In this document: piece by piece, positions 1,352-22,569 of the stretch
Position numbering within the stretch: position 1 is the stretch's first letter
How the letters are laid out: every line of letters begins with the position of its first letter
Origin: Burkholderiales bacterium
GTDB lineage: Bacteria; Pseudomonadota; Gammaproteobacteria; Burkholderiales; Burkholderiaceae_C
Reading direction: 5' to 3'
DNA: 32,062 bases
Assembly: GCA_018971105.1 (NCBI GenBank)
Contig: JAGWVB010000016.1
Location: forward strand, 1-32,062
Notes under the pieces: generated by a model
Databases searched by the model: none
Told to the model about the DNA's origin: nothing
What the model saw: only the letters and a program-made list of their open reading frames with translations
Translations under genes and position numbers: made by a program

Positions 1352-1707
1352 GCGATGAGGCGGGCGAGGTCCTTCGACCCGGAAGTGCACGCTCCCGCAT
1401 CGGCCACGTCGTGCGGGAATCCAAGACCCGCCCCGGACCGCTTTCATGCAGCGCCGCAACTTTGCTTGCGTTGCAGCGTCGATGCTGCGCGCCGACGCCG
1501 CTTGGACGCGGCGCAGGGTGCGCCCGTGACGACCGCCGCGCCGATCCGGCGCCGCGCAGGGGCGCCGGGTTCGCGTCGCTGCGGCTGTAAGGACTCGCCG
1601 CCGCACGCCGTCTAAGAACCACGAAGGTCGAACTCGACTTCCGGCGTCGAAGCGACGGCGCCCAAGCTCGCTGATCGAACCGTCCACCCACCGACCCGGA
1701 GCCCACC
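1352..1707. other. Intergenic region upstream of the bufferin-like operon
   Basis: The 356 bases hold no convincing gene; open frames here are typical of high-GC DNA and resemble nothing known. The only structured signal is a candidate ECF promoter at 1587-1612, about 95 bases before the precursor remnant. Confidence 0.5.
1587..1612 (+). promoter_or_regulatory. Candidate ECF (SigF-type) promoter of the bufferin-like operon
   Basis: GTAAGG (1587-1592), a 16-base spacer, then CGTC (1609-1612) followed by TAA. The -35 block and spacer length match the two GTAACC-N16-CGAA elements in the sigma-factor gap at 5720-5801, with two base changes in each core box. It sits at the right place to drive the DUF2282 remnant and the MNIO enzyme. 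No experimental support is available here. Confidence 0.5.
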
Positions 1708-1845
1708 ATGCATGCGCATACCACCCCGCTCGCGGCCGTCGCCCTCGCGCCGGGCGCGGCGCTCGCGGCGCTCCCTGACACCTTCCGCGCGACCGACGAA
1801 GCGCAATGTCTCGGCGTCGCGCTCGAGGACAGGCAGGGCCGATAA
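1708..1845 (+). pseudogene. Truncated DUF2282-like bufferin precursor remnant (BufA1-like)
   Basis: A 45-codon frame starts at ATG 1708 and ends at TAA 1843-1845, three bases before the MNIO enzyme. It has an Ala/Leu-rich hydrophobic N-terminal half resembling a signal peptide, then TDEAQCLGVAL, which recalls the first cysteine block of DUF2282 precursors (a Cys-(F/Y/L)-Gly-Val/Ile pattern). Family members normally continue for about 50 more residues with three further cysteines; here the frame ends eleven residues after Cys34. Position directly before DUF692 is canonical for BufA1. I infer that the precursor has lost its middle and C-terminal core. It could instead be a chance frame, as the N-region also lacks the usual lysine or arginine. 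Confidence 0.5.
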
Positions 1846-1848
1846 ACC

Positions 1849-2730
1849 ATGTCCGGCGCGACCTTCGAGCTGCCCGCGCGCATCGGCGTCGGGCTCAAGT
1901 CCGAGCATTTCGCCGACGTGCTGGCGTGCCGGCCGGACCTCGGTTTCTTCGAGGTCCATGCCGAGAACTACATGGTCGACGGCGGACCATTCCACCATTA
2001 CCTGGGCCGCATCCGCGAGCGCCACGCGCTGTCGATGCATGGCGTCGGGCTGTCGATCGGCGGCGAGGCGCCGCTCGACGAGGACCATCTGGACCGGCTG
2101 GCGCAGCTCGCCCAGCGCTACGAGCCGGCCTCGTTTTCCGAGCATCTGGCCTGGTCCAGCCATGGCGGCGCCTTTCTCAACGACCTGCTGCCGCTGCCCT
2201 ATGACGCGGCGACGCTGGACCGGGTGTGCCGGCATGTCGAGCGGCTGCAGGAGCGGCTTGGTCGGCGCATCCTGCTCGAGAACCCGGCGACCTACGTCGA
2301 ATTCGAGGCCTCGACGATGAGCGAGGCCGAGTTCCTGGGCGCCGTCGTGCGGCGCAGCGGCTGCGGATTGCTGCTCGACGTCAACAACGCCCATGTCTCC
2401 TGCACCAACCATGGACGCGATGCTTGGCACTACATCGATGCGCTGCCGCTGCATGCGGTCGGCGAGGTTCATCTGGCCGGATTTGCGCGCGACATCGACG
2501 CCGCCGGCGCGCCGCTGCTGATCGACAGCCATGGCAGCCCCGTCGACGCTGCCGTTTGGGCGCTGTACGAACGCCTGATCGAGCGCCTCGGGCCGTTGCC
2601 GACGCTGCTCGAACGCGACCACGACGTGCCGGCGCTGGACGTCCTGATCACCGAAGCGCGCCGCGCCGAGGTCGTGATGGCGGGCGCGCGGTCCGCGCCG
2701 CGCCAGGCGGCCCCGCAGGAGGCCGCATGA
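1849..2730 (+). CDS. bufB: MNIO (DUF692) iron-dependent oxidase, bufferin maturase BufB
   Basis: The 293-residue TIM-barrel protein belongs to the multinuclear non-heme iron-dependent oxidative enzymes (DUF692). Known members modify cysteines of ribosomally made precursor peptides, for example to thiooxazoles in copper-binding bufferins. Visible signatures are GVGLKSEHF near residue 11, FFEVHAENYM near 34, the conserved SMHGVGLSIGG block near 62, FSEHLAW near 96, LLENPATYVEFE near 142, LLLDVNNAHVSCTNHG near 173, VHLAGF near 204, DSHGSPVD near 221 and LLERDHDVPA near 251. These carry the His, Glu, Asn and Asp residues used as metal ligands in the family, so the enzyme looks active. It overlaps the degraded partner gene by ATGA (2727-2730). 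Its usual precursor is broken, so its present substrate is uncertain. Confidence 0.9.
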   Translation: MSGATFELPARIGVGLKSEHFADVLACRPDLGFFEVHAENYMVDGGPFHHYLGRIRERHALSMHGVGLSIGGEAPLDEDHLDRLAQLAQRYEPASFSEHLAWSSHGGAFLNDLLPLPYDAATLDRVCRHVERLQERLGRRILLENPATYVEFEASTMSEAEFLGAVVRRSGCGLLLDVNNAHVSCTNHGRDAWHYIDALPLHAVGEVHLAGFARDIDAAGAPLLIDSHGSPVDAAVWALYERLIERLGPLPTLLERDHDVPALDVLITEARRAEVVMAGARSAPRQAAPQEAA

Positions 2731-2945
2731 AGGCGGCGCAGGTCGCGAAGCCGGCGCATGCGCGCGCCGATTTCCGCGCCCGCCCTGATCGACCCGGACC
2801 GGCCCGGCCCGGCCGGGCCGCGGGCATGGAACGGCTCGCTTCCGGCGGCGCGGCAGCCGATCTCGGTCTCGCTGCGGCGCTGGCGCTGCCGCAGCGCCAT
2901 GGCGCCGACATTTCGATCCATCTAGCGCGGAGATTCGACGCATGA
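2727..2945 (+). pseudogene. Degraded DUF2063-like bufferin partner (BufC remnant)
   Basis: A frame of 72 codons lies exactly where the roughly 250-residue DUF2063 partner (BufC) belongs, coupled by ATGA overlaps to DUF692 on one side and DoxX on the other. Its early residues ADFRA continue, after a one-base shift near 2785, as [11 protein letters not shown] and then WNGS. This matches the F-A-A-L-L-D-P-x-x-P-V-P-x-G opening of DUF2063 proteins. The final part, [15 protein letters not shown], resembles the usual C-terminal helix of the family. The conserved middle (the YRNNV block onwards) is absent. I read this as a gene reduced by a large internal deletion plus a frameshift, leaving the translational coupling intact. 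The assignment is by eye and the C-terminal match is weak. Confidence 0.55.
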
Positions 2946-3466
2946 ATACGCAGACCCTGGGCAGCGAACGGGCCGCCGCCACCGACGGTGCGCGCTGGCC
3001 GGCGAGCGCGATCGCCCTTTGCAAACGCATCCCCGACAGTTTCATCGCGCTCATCGCCCGCATCTCGATCGCCGCCGTGTTCTGGACCTCGGGGCAGACG
3101 AAGGTGCAGGGCTTCGTCGTCGACGTCATCACCGGCGAGGTCCATCTGGGCTGGCCGCGCCTGTCCGACAGCGCCGTCGCGCTGTTCCGCGACGAATACA
3201 AGCTGCCCTTCATCGCGCCCGGCATCGCCGCGCCGCTGGCGGCGACGGCCGAGCATCTGTTCCCGCTGCTGCTGCTGCTGGGGCTGGCGACGCGCTTCTC
3301 GGCGCTCGCGCTGCTGGGCATGACGCTGGTGATAGAGATCTTCGTCTACCCCGATGCCTATCCGACCCATGGCACCTGGGCCGCGATCTTCCTCTACCTC
3401 ATGGCCCATGGCCCCGGCAGGCTGTCGATCGACCATTGGCTGGCGACACGCCGGCAGCCGCGATGA
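2942..3466 (+). CDS. DoxX-family membrane protein (BufD-like)
   Basis: This 174-residue protein has four predicted membrane segments in DoxX order: about residues 36-52 ([17 protein letters not shown]), 90-115 ([26 protein letters not shown]), 117-137 ([21 protein letters not shown]) and 143-160. The family motifs R-I-x-x-A-x-x-F-W-x-S-G and the glutamate-containing [23 protein letters not shown] are present. DoxX proteins commonly close DUF2282-DUF692-DUF2063 operons, where their role is unsettled; a quinone-linked redox partner for the oxidase is one possibility. The gene is intact and its ATG overlaps the stop of the degraded partner (ATGA), so it is likely translated by coupling. Confidence 0.85.
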
Positions 3467-3528
3467 ATCCGCGGCCCGGCATGCGATCCGCCGCGCATGC
3501 ACCAGGGCGCAGCGCGGCCCCCGATGCG

Positions 3529-3549
3529 ATGGATCGCGCCGCGATCCAT
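3529..3549. repeat. Inverted repeat (9-bp stem, 3-base loop)
   Basis: ATGGATCGC (3529-3537), loop gcc, GCGATCCAT (3541-3549). It lies in the 158-base gap between DoxX and the small cysteine-rich gene. There is no T-tract, so it may be an attenuator, an operator or a processing site rather than a classic terminator. Confidence 0.5.
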
Positions 3550-3624
3550 GCATGCCCGCGCCGGCGCTCCGGCGCGGTGGCGTACCCGACCCCTCGTTCT
3601 TTCCACCGCAGGCGATCCTCGATC

Positions 3625-3834
3625 ATGAACGGACTTTCATACCGGCTCGCCCAGGCGCTGGCATCCGCCGTCGTCACCGCCGCCGCCCTGAGCGGCAACG
3701 CCTTCGCGGCCACCTGCGCGGGCGCCCCGTGCGCGCCCAGGGCGGGCGCCGCGAAGTGCGGCGCCTGCAAGGCCCGCGGTGCGACGGCCGCGCACAAGGC
3801 CCGGGCCAAGGCCAAGGGTGCAGCGAAGCGGTGA
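3625..3834 (+). CDS. Small secreted cysteine-rich peptide, candidate MNIO substrate
   Basis: A 69-residue protein starts at ATG 3625, with a plausible ribosome site (aggcga, 3610-3615). Residues 1-29 form a classic signal peptide (Arg7, hydrophobic core LASAVVTAAAL, cleavage near AFA-AT). The mature part is about 40 residues with four cysteines at 31, 36, 45 and 48 (TCAGAPC and KCGAC), then a Lys/Arg/Ala tail. The layout of signal peptide plus short Cys-Gly core is that of bufferin-type MNIO precursors, and KCGAC recalls the EGKCG repeats of the BufA2/HvfA class. It is not an obvious member of DUF2282. Its position after DoxX, not before the MNIO enzyme, is unusual. I infer it may serve as the substrate now that the first precursor is broken. 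It could instead be an unrelated periplasmic peptide. Confidence 0.65.
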   Translation: MNGLSYRLAQALASAVVTAAALSGNAFAATCAGAPCAPRAGAAKCGACKARGATAAHKARAKAKGAAKR

Positions 3835-3843
3835 TAGACACCG

Positions 3844-4518
3844 GTGCCCCACCGTCGCAAGGCGGCGGACGGGCTCCTCATCGCCGATGAATGGATCCCG
3901 GACATCGCAGCGCGATCGGCGCCGGGCCGCCGCCCCGCAGCTGGCGGCGGACCTGGCGATCGCGCGCCGTTGCATCGCGTCGTTTGCCGCCGCGACGGCG
4001 GCGTCGGGATCTTGCTGCAAAGCTGGATCGGCAGTCGCGAGGTGGTCGAGTTCGATCACTGCCCGGACAACGATATCGTCGACACGCGGCACGGATCCCA
4101 GTTCTGTTACCACGCCCATCGCGACGGCGAACTGGAGCATGGCCACCTGCACCTGTTCTGGCATGCCACCGCCTCGGGCCGGCGTCGCTACTTGCGGCCC
4201 GGTCGGCCGCGCTGGTCGCGTACCGCGCCGAGCCACCTGTTCGCGATCTCGCTGGACGCGCGCGGCCTGCCGGTCGCCTTGTTCACCGTCAATCGCTGGG
4301 TCACCGAAGGCCACTGGTTCGACGCCGCGACGACGATGTCCCTGGTCGATCGCTTCGCGCTCGACGGCATCGACGACCACTCGTGCCGCTGGTTGGCGCG
4401 ACGCGCCGTTCGGGACTCGGCGCTCCGTGACCACCGGCTCGAGGTGTTGAGCACTCCCCTCGATTGGGCCGCCGATCTGGACGCCCTGGAAGCCGAGGGG
4501 CCGCGGCGCGGATCGTGA
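3844..4518 (+). CDS. DUF6969-like protein, probable frameshift near its N-terminus
   Basis: From about position 4006 the frame encodes a conserved-looking domain: ILLQSWIGSREVVEFDH, then SQFCYHAHRDGELEHGHLHLFWHA (rich in His), then HLFAISLDARGLPVALFTVNRWVTEGHWF. This pattern resembles DUF6969, a family of unknown function. The N-terminus in this frame (MPHRRKAADGLL...) looks unlike protein, while a second frame starting at ATG 3887 reads PQLAADLAIARRCIASFAAATAA, a natural helical lead-in, and would join after a one-base shift near 4000-4006. So the gene is probably 3887-4518 with a frameshift, either real or a sequencing error. The His-rich centre could bind metal, which would suit the neighbourhood. 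It converges with the anti-sigma gene, with four bases between stops. Confidence 0.55.
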   Translation: MPHRRKAADGLLIADEWIPDIAARSAPGRRPAAGGGPGDRAPLHRVVCRRDGGVGILLQSWIGSREVVEFDHCPDNDIVDTRHGSQFCYHAHRDGELEHGHLHLFWHATASGRRRYLRPGRPRWSRTAPSHLFAISLDARGLPVALFTVNRWVTEGHWFDAATTMSLVDRFALDGIDDHSCRWLARRAVRDSALRDHRLEVLSTPLDWAADLDALEAEGPRRGS

Positions 4519-4522
4519 TCTG

Positions 4523-5158
4523 CTACCAGCGCAGCCAGCGCGGCCCGAGCGCGGCGCCCACCGCTGCCGGCGCCAGGATGCCGAGCGTATACCAGACCAG
4601 CACGAACAGCGGCGACCACTCGGGGCAATGGAGCGCGTAGCCCAGGGCGCCCAGGCAGCCCGCGAGCAGTCCGGCGGCCCAGCCGGCCAGCCGCGGCCGC
4701 GTCGGCGCCAGCCCCCGCATCGCGACGATCACCGCGCCGAAGGCGGGCAGCGACAGCGCTGCGACACGCCACGAACAGGAGACCCAGGAATGCCCGAGCA
4801 GCAGTGCCGACCGCTGCGTTTGCGCCGTCGTGGCGTAGACCGTCGCCGCGAACGCCGCCATCACGAGCACGACGGCTGCAAGGCCCAGGGCGGCCCCGCG
4901 CCAGGCGGTCGCCGGCCGCGAAACTCGGTCAGCCAGCCGGGCAGCGCCGAACATCAGTCCGGCGACATAAGCCAGCTTCACCGCCAGGGCCGAGCCCATC
5001 GCGAGCAGGCCCGGGTTGAGTCCGAGCGCGGCCAGCGCTGCGGCGGCACTGAGCAAGGCCCCCAGACCCGCAGCCAGCGTCAGGCGCGTCTGCACCGCCC
5101 GGCGCGGTGCCGGGCCGGCCTGGGTGGCCAGCAGTTCGATGAGTTGATCGGTCTTCAT
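4523..5158 (-). CDS. NrsF-type (DUF1109) membrane anti-sigma factor
   Basis: The 211-residue protein has a short cytoplasmic N-terminus (MKTDQLIELLATQAGP) and six hydrophobic segments, roughly at 26-48, 52-72, 88-110, 131-149, 157-177 and 183-204. This is the plan of DUF1109 proteins, which hold a cognate ECF sigma factor at the membrane; in Caulobacter NrsF the response to metals depends on conserved cysteines. Here Cys128 (SWVSCSW, start of the fourth segment) and Cys178 (ALHCPE, near the fifth/sixth segment loop) are candidates for sensing residues, with Cys168 an extra one within the membrane. Its start overlaps the sigma gene stop (ATGA, 5155-5158), so both come from one mRNA in the order sigma, anti-sigma. 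Confidence 0.85.
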   Translation of the reverse strand: MKTDQLIELLATQAGPAPRRAVQTRLTLAAGLGALLSAAAALAALGLNPGLLAMGSALAVKLAYVAGLMFGAARLADRVSRPATAWRGAALGLAAVVLVMAAFAATVYATTAQTQRSALLLGHSWVSCSWRVAALSLPAFGAVIVAMRGLAPTRPRLAGWAAGLLAGCLGALGYALHCPEWSPLFVLVWYTLGILAPAAVGAALGPRWLRW

Positions 5159-5712
5159 GATCCGCCCCGGATGAGCAAGGCCAGCCGCTTCAGCCCGCGA
5201 TGCACGTTGATCTTGACGGCCGACTCGGACACGCCTTCGCGCCGCGCCGCATCCACGACCGACAGACCCTCGAGCTTGGTCGCGACGATCGAGCGGCGTT
5301 GCGCGCCCGGCAGTTGCGCGAGCAGTTGCACCAGGTCATGCCGGCTGCCGGAAGCCTCCTCGGCCGCCGGATGCAAGGCCTCGGGCAGCTCGTCGAAGGA
5401 GTCGAAGAGCCGGTCCTGGCGTCCACGCCGGCGCCAGGCGTCGACGAGCTTGTGGCGCGCGATGCCATGCACCCAGGCCGTCACCGGGGTGCCGTTGTCG
5501 TAGGTACCCCGCTGCAGATGCAGCGCCAGCAAGGTTTCCTGCACCAGATCCTCGACGTCTTGTGAAAGGCCGTTCAACCGGCTCGCAAAGTACCCCCGAA
5601 GCCGGTCGGCCACCAGGCCCAGGGCCTGGCGGTAGGCTGCTTCGTCGCCCATCTGGGCGCCGAGCCACAGCGGACGAAGCCGTTGTTCGAGATCTTCGGG
5701 CACGGGGCTCAC
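5155..5712 (-). CDS. ECF RNA polymerase sigma factor, SigF-like
   Basis: The encoded protein is 185 residues from a GTG at 5712 (VSPVPEDLEQRLRPLWLGAQMGDEAAYRQ). Region 2 is visible as DVEDLVQETLLALHLQRGTYDNGTPVTAWVHGIARHK, and region 4 as LPGAQRRSIVATKLEGLSVVDAARREGVSESAVKINVHRGLKRL with its helix-turn-helix. Pairing with an NrsF-type anti-sigma places it in the SigF group that controls bufferin and sulfur-redox genes in other proteobacteria. The frame stays open upstream but has no good start there. The GTG at 5712 lies about eight bases from the CGAA box of the candidate promoter, so the message would be leaderless or nearly so; GTG at 5703 is an alternative. Autoregulation is likely because its own promoter matches its predicted target. 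Confidence 0.88.
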   Translation of the reverse strand: MSPVPEDLEQRLRPLWLGAQMGDEAAYRQALGLVADRLRGYFASRLNGLSQDVEDLVQETLLALHLQRGTYDNGTPVTAWVHGIARHKLVDAWRRRGRQDRLFDSFDELPEALHPAAEEASGSRHDLVQLLAQLPGAQRRSIVATKLEGLSVVDAARREGVSESAVKINVHRGLKRLALLIRGGS

Positions 5713-5719
5713 TGCGTAT

Positions 5720-5745
5720 TTCGCCGTCGCGGGCAGATCGGTTAC
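5720..5745 (-). promoter_or_regulatory. SigF-type ECF promoter of the sigma/anti-sigma genes
   Basis: Read on the minus strand: GTAACC (5745-5740), 16-base spacer, CGAA (5723-5720). This is the GTAACC-N16-CGAA form that I recall for Caulobacter SigF promoters. The start point would fall near 5712-5714, next to the GTG start. Confidence 0.7.
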
Positions 5746-5785
5746 AGCGTCGCCGCAAAAAAAGTCCGATGGCCTGTAACCGATC
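5736..5785. repeat. Perfect 11-bp inverted repeat spanning both -35 boxes
   Basis: GATCGGTTACA (5736-5746) and TGTAACCGATC (5775-5785) are exact reverse complements, 28 bases apart. Each contains one promoter's -35 box plus five flanking bases. Matching beyond the -35 core suggests a duplicated promoter unit or a second protein that binds here. Confidence 0.8.
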
Positions 5786-11581: not shown

Positions 11582-12580
11582 TCAGAGGCCGCAGCCGGGA
11601 GCCGCAGCGGTTGCGGGTTCGAGCGCGCCGCCGCAGCTCGAACCCTGGCCGGCGGTGCAGCCGAAGCAGTGATCGGCGACCCGTATGGGTTCCCCTTCGA
11701 GTCGGCCCGCGCCGACCTCGCCGAGATGCACGCGCGTCCGGCCATCGAGCCGGATCGGCAGGGCTAGCTGCTGATTGAAATCGCAGTCGTAGAGATAGCC
11801 CTGCCAGTCGACGCTGAGCAGCTTGCGGCACATGACCTGGGGCAGATTCTCGTCGCGGTGCGCATCGCGCAGCAGCGTCATGTAGGCGTTGAACTGGCCC
11901 TTGGAGACCAGCATCGAGCCGAAGCGCTGGATCGGCATGTTGGCCAGCGTGTACAGCTCGTTGAACACCACCCCATGGCGCTCGCCGAGCAGGCGCTGGT
12001 AGTCGCGCTCGAGCGGCCCCTGGGCCGGCGGTAGGCTGGCGCCCTGCGGGTTGTACACGAGGTTCAGGATCAGGCCCGACCCGGGCTTGCCGTAGCCCAG
12101 CGCGTTCAGGCGCTGCAGGGCGCGGATGCTGGCCTCGAAGGTCCCCTTGCCGCGCTGGCGGTCGACGTTGTCTTCGAGGTAGCAGGGTAGCGAGGCCACG
12201 ACCTCGACCTCGTGCGCGGCGAGGAAATCCGCCAGCGTCTCCTGACCCGGGACTTCGAGGATGGTCAGGTTGCAGCGGTCGACGACGCGCACGCCGCGTC
12301 GCCTGGCGGCGACCACGAGGGCGCGGAAATGCCGGTTCAGCTCCGGTGCGCCGCCGGTCAGGTCCAGCACGCGCACGCCCGCGTTCGCGGCCAGGAAGTC
12401 GATGACGACGGCGACCGTGTCGGCCGACATGTCCTCGGTTCGATGGGGTCCGGCGTTGACATGGCAATGCACGCAACTCTGGTTGCATCGATAGCCGAGG
12501 TTGACCTGTAGCGTCTCGACGGCGACGCGTCGCAGCGCCGGAAAGTCGGTCTGGGTGAGCAGTGGGAGGGTGGCGTGCAT
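11582..12580 (-). CDS. arsS: Arsenosugar biosynthesis-type radical SAM protein ArsS
   Basis: The 332-residue protein carries the radical SAM cluster motif CNQSCVHC (Cys32, Cys36, Cys39) followed by HVNAGPHR, the SAM-binding LDLTGGAPELN near residue 93, and the family blocks SLPCYLEDNVDRQRGKGTFEASI and GLILNLVYNPQGASLPP. The C-terminal DUF3641-type part has DCDFNQQL and the cysteine cluster HCFGCTAGQGSSCGGAL. ArsS proteins are linked to arsenosugar formation from methylated arsenic, normally with ArsM; no arsM is in this window. Some family members use selenocysteine, but no in-frame TGA occurs here. It is the first gene of a three-gene minus-strand operon. Confidence 0.9.
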   Translation of the reverse strand: MHATLPLLTQTDFPALRRVAVETLQVNLGYRCNQSCVHCHVNAGPHRTEDMSADTVAVVIDFLAANAGVRVLDLTGGAPELNRHFRALVVAARRRGVRVVDRCNLTILEVPGQETLADFLAAHEVEVVASLPCYLEDNVDRQRGKGTFEASIRALQRLNALGYGKPGSGLILNLVYNPQGASLPPAQGPLERDYQRLLGERHGVVFNELYTLANMPIQRFGSMLVSKGQFNAYMTLLRDAHRDENLPQVMCRKLLSVDWQGYLYDCDFNQQLALPIRLDGRTRVHLGEVGAGRLEGEPIRVADHCFGCTAGQGSSCGGALEPATAAAPGCGL

Positions 12581-12944
12581 GAGCTGGTGCCGAGGATGGT
12601 GTCGGTTTGGACGAGCCGGCCGCGCGGTTCCTTACACCCGCGCCGCCGGCGGCGCAAGAAATCCGGCCGCGGCCACGTCGATGCTCCCGGGGCAGGGCCG
12701 GGGATGCACGCTGGCATCCCGTGCGCGCCGGCGCGCTCGAATCGGCTGACAGGACATCACCGTCGGCGAGCAGGGGTCCGTTCGAGTCCGGCGCGTGGCG
12801 ATGAACGACCTCATGCCCGGTTGCGTGTCGGGCTGCAGCGGCGCGCCCATCGGGACGCCGACGACGGCGGTCGGACACAGCAGAGGCCGCCATGGATGGC
12901 GTCGGCACGGCCGCTTGCGCCACCCGAAGCGGCGAGGCCCTGGA
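12581..12944. other. Intergenic region upstream of arsS
   Basis: These 364 bases contain no gene I can support. Palindromic GC-rich stretches such as CGCCGCCGGCGGCG near 12640 occur. No clear promoter for arsS was identified by eye. Confidence 0.4.
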
Positions 12945-14666: not shown

Positions 14667-15467
14667 ATGAACCGCCTGCCCAGCCTGTTCGTCTCCCACG
14701 GTGCGCCGACCTTCGCCATCGAGCCCGGCCTGGCCGGCCCGAAGCTGGCGGCATTGGGCCGCGCGCTGGCCCGGCCGCGCGCGGTGCTGGTGGTGTCGCC
14801 CCACTGGATGACGGTCAGCCCCTCCGTGGGCCTCGCCGCCCGCCCGCGGACGATCCACGATTTCGGCGGCTTCGACCCGTCGCTGTACGAGATCACCTAC
14901 GCCGTCGACGGCCACCCGGCACTGGCACAGCGCGCGCTGGACCTGCTGAGGGAGGCGGGCTGGGCACCGCTGCCCGACGAGCGCCGCGGCCTGGACCATG
15001 GCGCCTGGGTGCCGCTGCGGCACCTGTATCCCGCGGCCGACGTGCCGGCCTTCCAAGTCTCGCTGCCGTCGCGCCTGGACGGCGACAGCGCATGGGCCTT
15101 CGGCGCAACGCTGGCACCGCTGGCCGACGAGGGCGTGCTGATCGTCGGTTCGGGCAGCCTGACACACAACCTGGGCGAATTCCGCGCGGGCCCGGGGGCT
15201 GACGAGGCGTATGTCGCCGAGTTCGCGGCGTGGGTGCGTGACGCCGTCGTCAGGGGCGACAGCGCCAGTCTGCGCCAGACGCTGACCCTGGCGCCGCACG
15301 CGCGGCGTGCGCATCCGACCACGGAACACTTCTGGCCGCTGCTGGTGGCCGCAGGCGCTGCGGCGGCGGCCCTGCCGGCCGCGCCGATCGACGGCGGCAT
15401 CACCCACGGTGTGCTGTCGATGGACGCCTTCGTGTTCGGCACGGCCTGCTCAACGAGAAACTCATGA
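14667..15467 (+). CDS. DODA-type extradiol aromatic ring-opening dioxygenase (YgiD-like)
   Basis: The 266-residue protein matches the class III (LigB-like) 4,5-DOPA dioxygenase family. Key blocks are LFVSHGAPTFAIE (metal-binding His near residue 10), VVSPHWM (His near 45), YEITYAVDGHPALAQRAL, LDHGAWVPLRHLYP (His near 112), GVLIVGSGSLTHNLGEF and HPTTEHFWPLLVAAGA (His near 218). These hold the Zn/Fe ligands and active-site histidines of the family. The start ATG 14667 has cagga upstream. The last residues overlap the hydrolase start (ATGA, 15464-15467). It probably opens catecholic or quinol rings as part of aromatic detoxification. Confidence 0.92.
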   Translation: MNRLPSLFVSHGAPTFAIEPGLAGPKLAALGRALARPRAVLVVSPHWMTVSPSVGLAARPRTIHDFGGFDPSLYEITYAVDGHPALAQRALDLLREAGWAPLPDERRGLDHGAWVPLRHLYPAADVPAFQVSLPSRLDGDSAWAFGATLAPLADEGVLIVGSGSLTHNLGEFRAGPGADEAYVAEFAAWVRDAVVRGDSASLRQTLTLAPHARRAHPTTEHFWPLLVAAGAAAAALPAAPIDGGITHGVLSMDAFVFGTACSTRNS

Positions 15468-15946
15468 ACACCCACACGATGATCGTCCAGAACCCTTCGG
15501 CGCCACGGCGGCTGGTGCTGCTGTTCCACGGCGTCGGCTCGAACGCCCGCGACTTGCTGCTGGGCGAGGCGCTGGCGCCACACCTGCCCGACGCGCTGAT
15601 CGTCAGCGTTCAGGCGCCGCAGCCTGCGGGGCGCGGCTGGCAGTGGTTCCCGGTGCAGGGCGTCACCGAGGCGAATCGGCCGGCGCGGGTGGCGGCGGCC
15701 ATGGCCGGCTTCGTACAGACGGTGCAGCAGTGGCAGCAGGCCAGCGTGCTGACGCCGACCGAGACGACGCTGATCGGCTTCTCGCAGGGCGCGATCATGG
15801 CCCTCGAATCGACGCAGCTCGAACATGCGCCGGCCAGCCGCGTCGTGGCGCTGTCGGGCCGTTTCGCGCAGCCGCCGCGCGTGGCCGACCCCGCTGTCCG
15901 CATCCATCTGATGCATGGCGACGCCGATGCCGTGATGCCGGTGTAG
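15464..15946 (+). pseudogene. Alpha/beta hydrolase (YpfH/MhqD-type esterase), broken by an internal stop
   Basis: The first 160 codons give a carboxylesterase-like fold: RRLVLLFHGVGSNARDLL, SVQAPQPAGRGWQWFP, the nucleophile elbow GFSQGAIMAL and the acid LMHGDADAVMPV. A TAG at 15944-15946 then ends the frame. Past the TAG the same frame goes on as GALAQLQGLRAMATLDRFPGLGHGIDGRAVDAIVRRL, which is the rest of the esterase, including the catalytic histidine in GLGHGID. The product that stops at TAG has Ser and Asp but lacks His, so it should be inactive. A single substitution or a sequencing error explains it. The gene overlaps the dioxygenase by ATGA and belongs to the same operon. Confidence 0.8.
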
Positions 15947-16598: not shown

Positions 16599-17172
16599 AT
16601 GGCCACCTACAAAGTCGGATATCTCATCGGCAGCCTGTCCTCGACATCGATCAACCGCCTGCTTGCCAAGGCGCTGGTCAAGCTGGCGCCGCCCGATCTG
16701 GTGCTGGGCGAGATCGCCATCAAGGACCTGCCGCTCTACAGCCAGGACTTCGATGCCGACTACCCGCCCGTCGCACGGACCTTCAAGCAGGCCATCGCCG
16801 ATGTCGACGCGTTGCTCTTCGTGACGCCCGAATTCAACCGCTCGATCCCGGGGGGGCCTGAAGAACGCGATCGACTGGGGCACGCGGCCCTGGGGCCAGA
16901 ACGCCTTCTCGCGCAAGCCCACGGGCGTGATCGGCGCCTCGCCGGGTGCCATCGGCACCGCGGTCGCGCAAAGCCACCTGCGCGGCGTGCTGAGCTTCTG
17001 CAACGCGCCGCTGATGAACGCGATGGAAGCCTATGTGCAGTTCAAACCCGGGCTCATCACCGCCGACGGCGACATCACCGACGACGGCACGAAGAAGTTC
17101 CTGCGGAACTACATCGGCGAACTGCATGCCTTCATCGTGCGCGAGCTGACCTTGCCGCCCCGCAAGGCCTGA
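16599..17172 (+). pseudogene. NAD(P)H-dependent FMN reductase, frameshifted at a G run
   Basis: The first frame (from ATG 16599, ribosome site cagga) reads YKVGYLIGSLSSTSINRLLAKAL, the phosphate-binding start of flavodoxin-like FMN reductases, and runs to VTPEFNRSIPGG. The continuation expected for the family, LKNAIDWGTRPWGQNAFSRKPTGVIGASPGAIGTA, lies in another frame and goes on to RKA at 17172. The switch falls on seven G's (16850-16856), where six would restore one frame of about 190 residues similar to ChrR/azoreductase-type quinone reductases. This may be a true mutation, slippage-based switching or a homopolymer sequencing error. Everything on both sides looks functional. Confidence 0.85.
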
Positions 17173-21344: not shown

Positions 21345-22569
21345 CTACTGCGCTGCTGAGTCGCCTGCGGTGCCGACCCGCACCGCGCTCTTGGGCAGTG
21401 CCATCAGGATCGTCAGGCCGCCGACGACGACCAATGCCGTCAAGGCCCCCAAGCCCATCTGCATACTGCCCGTGGCAGCCTTGATCCAGCCGATCAGCGT
21501 CGGGCTGACGAAGCCGCCGAGGATGCCGAGCGAGCTGATCACGGCGATGCCGGAGGCCGCTGCCTCACGGCTCAGGTAGGTCGGCGGAATCGACCAGAAC
21601 AGCGAGCCGCCGCCGAAGATGAAGAAGGCGGCAATGCACAGCAGCACCATCACCGGCGCCAAGGCGCCGCCGAGGAAGGAGGTGCCAAACAGCGCGATCA
21701 CCCCGACCAGCAGCGTGCCGCCGACGTGCCAGCGGCGTTCCTTGAAACGATCCGAACTCCGGCTGATCACCAGCACGCCGATGGAACCGAAAACGTAGGG
21801 TACGGCGGTGATCCACCCGATCGAGGCGATCGACGCGATGCCCAGGCCCTTGATCATCGTCGGCAGCCAGAAGGTGACCGTATAGACCGCGCAGGCGCAG
21901 CAGAAGTAGACGAAGGCCAGCACGTAGGTCTTGGGGTCGGCCAGCGCGGCGGCCAGCCTGCCGTGATGGCCCGGCTTGACGTCGACCCGGTGGTCCGCAT
22001 CGAGCACCGACTGCACGACGGCCTTTTCGCGGTCGTCCAGCCAGCGGGCCGCCGAGCACGCCCGTGATGGGCATGCCGAACAGGAACAGCCCGGTCACGC
22101 GGCCGCGGCGGTGGCTCGGATACCAGTACGTCAGGAACAGGATGATGCCGGGAAAGAAGCCGGCCTCGAACACGCCCAGCAGCAGCCTGACCAGATAGAA
22201 GTGCCAGGCCTGCGTGACGAAGGCGGTGGCCGCGGACGTCAGGCCCCACAGCACCATGATGCGCAGGAAGGTCAGGCGCGCGCCGATCTTCTCGAGCAGC
22301 AGGTTGCTCGGGACCTCGAACAGCAGGTAGGTGACGAAGAAGATGCCGGCGCCCAAGCCGTAGACGGCATCGGAGAAGGCCAGGTCCTGCTTCATCTGCA
22401 GCTGCGCGTAGCCGATGTTGATGCGGTCCAGGAACGCAAGGATGTAGGCGATCAGCACGATGGGCATCACGCGCCAGCTGATCTTGCGATAGACCTGGTC
22501 TTCCGTGGACTCGGCGGGCAGCGGCCGGGCGGCCGCGTCCGCCGGGGTCGCGGTGGCTGCGTGGTTCAT
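21345..22569 (-). pseudogene. MFS transporter (ACS family) with internal deletion and frameshift
   Basis: From ATG 22569 the frame encodes segments 1-5 of an anion:cation-symporter-type MFS protein: WRVMPIVLIAYILAFLDRINIGYAQLQM, TYLLFEVPSNLLLEKIGARLTFLRIMVLWGLTSAATAF and FLFGMPITGVLGGPLAG. It then runs into unrelated sequence. A second frame picks up as RWLDDREKAVVQSVLDADHRVDVKPGHHG, then ALADPKTYVLAFVYFC and segments 7-12 to TAG 21345. Relatives have about 40-45 further residues (segment 6) between GGPL and WLDD. So about 120-130 bases are missing near 22045-22055 and the frame is lost. The transporter cannot be functional as read. It lies between BKACE and the Crp-type regulator. Confidence 0.8.

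Follow-up and report, generated by a model that had tools for sequence, protein, structure and literature searches.

The window analysed here, 32,062 nucleotides of contig JAGWVB010000016.1 from a Burkholderiales bacterium of the lineage Burkholderiaceae_C (assembly GCA_018971105.1), carries at positions 1586-3466 a bufferin (Buf1) operon that is common to the sister species. The promoter motif, the MNIO maturase gene (bufB) and doxX are intact, while the genes for the precursor (bufA) and the partner protein (bufC) are present as remnants. Among the parts of a complete cluster (precursor, MNIO, partner and DoxX), only MNIO and DoxX are therefore intact, and four of the six genes on the same strand are damaged or shortened (bufA, bufC, a small peptide gene and a DUF6969 gene), with bufB and doxX spared. 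The locus is a degenerate variant of a known operon type. In the leading reading, given a probability of roughly 0.42, an inherited Buf1 operon lost its precursor and partner, and its constrained maturase would work in trans with the partner and precursor encoded by a second operon on contig C9 of the same genome. The results on the window refer to one strain, represented by a single assembly (499 contigs, genome 98% complete).

A sequence-only reading of this DNA had described the MNIO (DUF692) enzyme and DoxX as full length, and profile searches confirmed this for both. BufB matched PF05114 with 348 bits and the MNIO_BufB model NF050167 with 383.9 bits (cut-off 310), and its match to PDB entry 3bww had an E-value of 1.7e-42. 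The conserved motifs were also found, as all 30 clade-conserved H/E/D/N/C columns of BufB were retained in an alignment of 109 rows. Thiooxazole formation on cysteines is the activity predicted for the enzyme. DoxX reached 58 bits with PF07681 (cut-off 23.6) and 50.8 with the HvfX-family model, under the cut-off of 80. Both ATGA overlaps are retained, as had been read, at 2727-2730 (bufB/bufC) and 2942-2945 (bufC/doxX).

For the precursor, the BufA protein of sister locus L034 (DUF2282, 84 bits) was located by tblastn at 1708-1845 with an E-value of 4.5e-6, the next place in the window being at 0.036. Of 592 six-frame segments, this remnant was also the best match of a clade profile (E 2.5e-4, next 0.71); the clade profiles were built from 101 BufA and 106 BufC sequences, excluding the window. 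The match of the sister BufA at the syntenic place, together with the clade profile, identifies this stretch as a descendant of a DUF2282 gene. The remnant keeps the signal region and the first cysteine (EAQCLGVAL) and ends before the other three of four cysteines, in agreement with the earlier description of a precursor cut after its first cysteine block. Four conserved cysteines characterize a Buf1 precursor in PMC12452194, and only one is left. Since the central cysteines are the modified ones in bufferin precursors (PMC12452194), the remnant is unable to work as a normal precursor.

The partner gene is reduced as well, as had been claimed. BufC of sister locus L035 (DUF2063, 90 bits) aligned by tblastn to 2776-2853 and 2838-2942 in different frames, both with an E-value of 1.1e-5 (next place 0.005), and these two pieces establish descent from a DUF2063 gene. 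The open reading frame (ORF) of 219 bp compares with approximately 780 bp in L034 and 798 bp in L035, so that about 560-580 bp are missing. With 72 residues it has neither the DUF2063 signature nor the length near 250-260 amino acids of a PME-type 1 partner as described in PMC12452194. The clade BufC profile ranked the N-terminal piece first among the 592 segments (E 0.0039, next 0.56) and did not find the C-terminal piece among them. The openness of the bufC frame was dropped as a sign of selection, as sequence shuffled at equal composition remains open with a probability of 0.37, before a factor of one in three for the frame.

The sequence-only reading had made DUF2282 and DUF2063 profile similarity in 1708-1845 and 2727-2945 the test of its remnants. 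This part failed for the general profiles: neither 1708-1842 nor the bufC remnant matched DUF2282, DUF2063 or other general Pfam and NCBIfam profiles at E-values up to 10, and whole-genome searches with the DUF2282 and DUF2063 profiles did not list the remnant place in the window. It stood for the clade profiles, by which bufA and the N-terminal piece of bufC were found. The comparison with sister species that it had proposed gave full-length bufA and bufC genes there, with the window remnants at the syntenic places. The L034 precursor (84 bits) exceeds the DUF2282 cut-off and the L035 partner (90 bits) that of DUF2063, and the L036 precursor and the L034 partner are recognised by the clade profiles.

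The claim that selection preserved the enzyme after these losses was upheld by codon branch tests and by conserved columns. On a fixed tree (eight taxa for bufB, seven for doxX), omega = 1 was rejected on the window branch for bufB (twice the log-likelihood difference, 2dlnL, 17.95) and for doxX (33.92). For doxX omega was 0.042 on this branch against 0.071 elsewhere (2dlnL 1.30). The controls were mixed: with L034 and L130 as foreground the test was null for bufB (0.00 and 0.07), while L130 gave 4.60 for doxX. At columns conserved to at least 90%, departures were counted at 8 of 16 positions in the bufA remnant and 3 of 9 in the bufC pieces (together 11/25), against 3 of 139 in bufB and 4 of 67 in doxX. 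The contrast between the two remnants and the two intact genes gave p-values of 5e-8, 7e-6 and 1e-5 at the 90, 95 and 97% levels, and bufB departed at none of the 98 columns conserved to at least 97%. Poor alignment of the bufA signal region qualifies the bufA column and omega results; after four columns at the bufA deletion junction were removed by hand, 7 of 21 departures in bufA plus bufC still stood against 3 of 139 in bufB (p 2e-5). For bufC alone against bufB the p-value was 0.003 at the 90% level.

With the nonsynonymous share taken to be 0.73, a rough conversion of these counts into the fraction of the branch spent without constraint gave at most about 0.04-0.06 for bufB, at least about 0.15 for bufA plus bufC and at least about 0.08 for bufC alone. 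Omega values on the remnant pieces (0.28 for the bufC pieces and 0.63 for bufA, next to 0.167 for bufB) were used as support only, with branch lengths fixed, pieces picked by similarity and partly overlapping profile ranges of bufB and bufC. BufB is thus constrained yet somewhat relaxed. On balance, it outlived its partners under selection, unless it was recently imported, and because selection on it continued beyond the partner losses, it probably kept a job.

A possible supplier of the missing components is found on contig C9, where a DUF2282 precursor with four cysteines (82 bits), an MNIO (290 bits) and a DUF2063 partner (57 bits) are encoded in this order, as in Buf1, by open frames. In the whole-genome profile search no place other than C9 exceeded the DUF2282 or DUF2063 cut-off. 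For the related HvfB of the Haemophilus hvf system, in vitro work gave no product in the absence of its DUF2063-type partner HvfC, which was also required to reach the active state of the iron (PMC13419390). For this reason the window enzyme would be expected to need a partner, the sole one found being on C9. According to the scenario favoured here, the Buf1 operon would have been inherited within the genus, bufA and bufC would have been lost in the window lineage through deletions and a frameshift, and the promoter motif, maturase and DoxX would have been retained, the maturase under selection after the losses. BufB would then work in trans with the DUF2063 partner and the DUF2282 precursor of C9, with unchanged chemistry: a partner-activated iron centre, conversion of cysteine to thiooxazole and binding of copper in the periplasm. 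From these comparisons we infer the expression, the use in trans, the chemistry and the function of the window BufB. Selection on the enzyme had earlier been taken to imply another substrate or a changed mechanism. That further step is not borne out: partner and precursor might come in trans from the C9 operon, and with a second bufA-bufB-bufC operon in the genome, use in trans is the simpler explanation.

Several observations weigh against use in trans. For bufB, omega on the window branch has doubled relative to the rest of the tree (0.167 against 0.083, 2dlnL 5.69), as in a gene being lost, and for bufC alone against bufB the column contrast weakens to p 0.11 at the 95% level (1/7 against 1/114) and disappears at 97% (0/3 against 0/98). 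The C9 operon already has its own maturase. This enzyme is 41-45% identical to the window BufB and falls short of the cut-off of the BufB model (298.5 against 310), and because of this divergence the C9 BufC may not fit the window BufB. In addition, activity of HvfB and HvfC depended on their co-expression or fusion (PMC13419390), which makes loose sharing harder. A maturase that keeps its conserved residues after loss of partner and precursor in cis offers a natural test of partner sharing between operons, or of work without a partner.

Close behind use in trans ranks the explanation, tentative and in itself rather unlikely, that a redundant operon is dying: bufA, bufC and the DUF6969 gene would be dead, bufB recently functionless and not yet hit, and doxX possibly still serving. 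The doubled omega of bufB, the broken DUF6969 gene and the cysteine-poor peptide agree with this, and the second operon could make the window operon dispensable. The bufB frame could be kept open because translation of doxX may be coupled to it through the two ATGA overlaps, which would account for an open frame without protein function. Such coupling leaves the near absence of departures at conserved bufB residues (0/98 and 3/139) unexplained, however, and the smaller unconstrained share of bufB than of its former partners indicates that it outlived them under selection, at least temporarily. Redundancy alone does not force or explain loss either, as the relative G306 holds two loci (L134 and L149), each with bufA, bufB, bufC and doxX.

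It is unlikely that BufB, alone or with a partner supplied in trans, now modifies the Cys/Lys peptide encoded behind doxX. In L035 and other loci, and in L034, where the contig ends within it, this peptide is likewise encoded after doxX, and its signal region is conserved. MNIO genes occur in all eight peptide-bearing genomes tested, compared with 49 of the 81 genus genomes, and precursors with multiple Cys-Lys motifs (PMC13097082) and tandem precursors (PMC12452194) have been described. However, the window peptide has 4 cysteines against 8, 10, 11 and 15 in four counted relatives (6 were counted by eye in the copy of G067), and its leader shows an omega of 0.59 against L035, other pairs giving 0.13-0.37. 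The neighbouring DUF6969 gene (PF22308, 131 bits over profile positions 21-153 of 201) is split into an N-terminal part at 3878-4012 and a body at 4006-4512 in different frames, and a stretch of about 22 internal amino acids is absent in comparison with intact relatives (tblastn). The only other candidate substrate of the operon is thus short of cysteines and beside a broken gene, which speaks against the changed substrate proposed by the sequence-only reading. Less probable again is the fuller version, in which BufB was freed from DUF2282 and DUF2063 and selected for the peptide of a peptide-DUF6969 module, the partner being supplied in trans or dispensed with; if true, it would add a further MNIO-linked family of metal-binding peptides.

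The pair is also separable from the operon. In all 12 peptide-bearing loci read, the peptide was followed by DUF6969 (a weak extra match in G072 did not hold up), and the pair adjoined the buf operon in eight of them and lay away from it in the other four. Within the 81 genus genomes, the peptide model matched nine including G072, DUF6969 was found in nine, and both in eight. The pair, with DUF6969 next to a KCGAC-repeat peptide that has a signal peptide, was also seen at L037 (7373-8667), L045 (7330-8600), L164 and L170-L172. No paper on DUF6969 was found within the collection searched, an intact DUF6969 relative matched no PDB sequence below an E-value of 0.05, and a relative of the peptide had no match in a plasmid search. 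An AlphaFold model of an intact DUF6969 relative was discarded for its mean predicted local distance difference test (pLDDT) score of 37.8. This uncharacterised pair, often beside bufferin operons, represents a separate lead.

Homologous recombination with a relative whose operon is intact might recently have brought in bufB, with or without doxX. The constraint would then have been earned elsewhere, and a constrained gene beside decayed neighbours would be accounted for. We regard such an import as very unlikely. In a FastTree tree of 18 bufB sequences, the window grouped, on a long terminal branch, with L034, L035 and L036 (support 0.999), and these three formed a group of their own (0.900). 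No bufB above 81% identity turned up among the 81 genus genomes, and none above 76% outside the genus among 399 family genomes drawn; the public contig scan for loci covered the best 80 loci.

Just as doubtful is an artefact of assembly or sequencing. In its favour, the locus is represented by one assembly, in 499 contigs, a few further genes in the window look broken, and ORF coverage of the window is low (0.735). Against it, a simple base-call error would not remove some 560-580 bp, leave diverged remnants and shift the frame, the order doxX-peptide-DUF6969 agrees with the sisters, and ORF coverage in a genome sample (0.788 over 194 kb, window included) is near that of three relatives (0.81-0.82). 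Frameshifts riddling the whole genome were rejected as a general explanation by the GC-based ORF count over about 194 kb of contigs of at least 4.5 kb, window included. Least probable of all is a partner-independent MNIO with a changed mechanism, suggested by the lack of an intact partner in cis and by MovX, which works without a separate partner (PMC12452194), as MovX carries an additional fused domain while the window BufB has ordinary length and is unchanged at the columns conserved to at least 97%, HvfB without HvfC gave no product (PMC13419390), and a DUF2063 gene is present elsewhere in the genome.

The combination of losses is rare. A census covered 132 loci, 125 with identical copies removed. 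Of the 117 distinct loci with at least 900 bp downstream of bufB, 116 have bufC, the window being the sole exception. BufA is present in 115 of 121 loci with at least 700 bp upstream; bufA is missing from the window and from five further loci, each with bufC. Among the 113 loci with both flanks, the window alone is without bufA and without bufC. Maturase loci with a partner gene and no DUF2282 match just upstream were noted at L049, L146, L025, L028 and L031. Several relatives have two or three MNIO genes (e.g. G093, G079 and G085). G093 (L035 and L036) has one C9-like maturase and two of the window type that share 93% identity. Table 3 of PMC12452194 lists 27 genomes with DUF2282 and MNIO and no type-1 partner, next to 4072 genomes with DUF2282; the present genome falls outside that class because a partner gene exists elsewhere in it. 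A literature search combining MNIO, precursor, partner and pseudogene found no paper within the collection searched.

Table 1. Features of the operon and its neighbourhood, in window positions
Feature	Position	Strand	Basis
ECF-type (extracytoplasmic function) promoter motif TGTAAG-N17-CGTCTA	1586..1614	+	kept
bufA remnant (DUF2282 precursor)	1708..1845	+	sister tblastn, clade profile
bufB, MNIO bufferin maturase, intact	1849..2730	+	PF05114, NF050167
bufC remnant (DUF2063 partner), open frame between both ATGA overlaps	2727..2945	+	sister alignments
bufC N-terminal piece, out of frame with bufC start	2776..2838	+	tblastn with L035 BufC; aligned to relatives
bufC C-terminal piece	2838..2942	+	tblastn with L035 BufC; aligned to relatives
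doxX, intact	2942..3466	+	PF07681
Small signal-peptide Cys/Lys peptide (KCGACK type)	3625..3834	+	4 Cys
DUF6969 gene, broken	3844..4518	+	PF22308; tblastn with intact relatives
NrsF anti-sigma factor	4523..5158	-	PF06532, 185 bits
ECF sigma factor adjoining NrsF, candidate operon regulator	5158..5757	-	Sigma70_r2 48 bits, Sigma70_r4_2 46 bits

Under strict matching the promoter motif occurs twice in the window, with 0.01 occurrences expected. In nine close relatives it lies 127-150 bp before the BufA match, and in the window 122 bp before position 1708. It was found within 320 bp in 22 of 103 bufA-bearing loci, compared to 32 of 2060 control windows. The ECF sigma factor is a candidate regulator that may act on the operon promoter. 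The second exact match (12610-12636, minus strand) closely precedes a radical SAM/DUF3641 gene (11582-12580, minus strand), which suggests a sigma-factor regulon shared with this gene.

Compared to the Buf1 cluster of precursor, MNIO, DUF2063 and DoxX (PMC12452194), the window shares the BufB family, the gene order, DoxX and a nearby sigma factor with NrsF, and differs by its bufA and bufC remnants and by the Cys/Lys peptide and broken DUF6969 gene behind. The sigmaF-dependent CC3252-CC3257 genes of Caulobacter (PMC3511200) likewise comprise DUF2282, DUF692, DUF2063 and DoxX beside sigmaF and a negative regulator; there all of these genes are listed, and the published motif is GTAACC-N16-CGAA, unlike that of the window. 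The Haemophilus oxazolin hvf operon (PMC13419390) also has an MNIO, a partner containing a RiPP recognition element (RRE) and a DoxX-like protein, but its precursor type differs and HvfC is required, whereas the window is without an intact partner in cis. The C9 operon is complete, in contrast to that of the window, with a more distant MNIO and no doxX match alongside.

The upstream neighbour of the window operon is unlike that of L034. Elsewhere in the window, a carboxylesterase, an FMN reductase and an MFS transporter gene (15464-15946, 16599-17172 and 21345-22016) look truncated or split, with partial Pfam matches.

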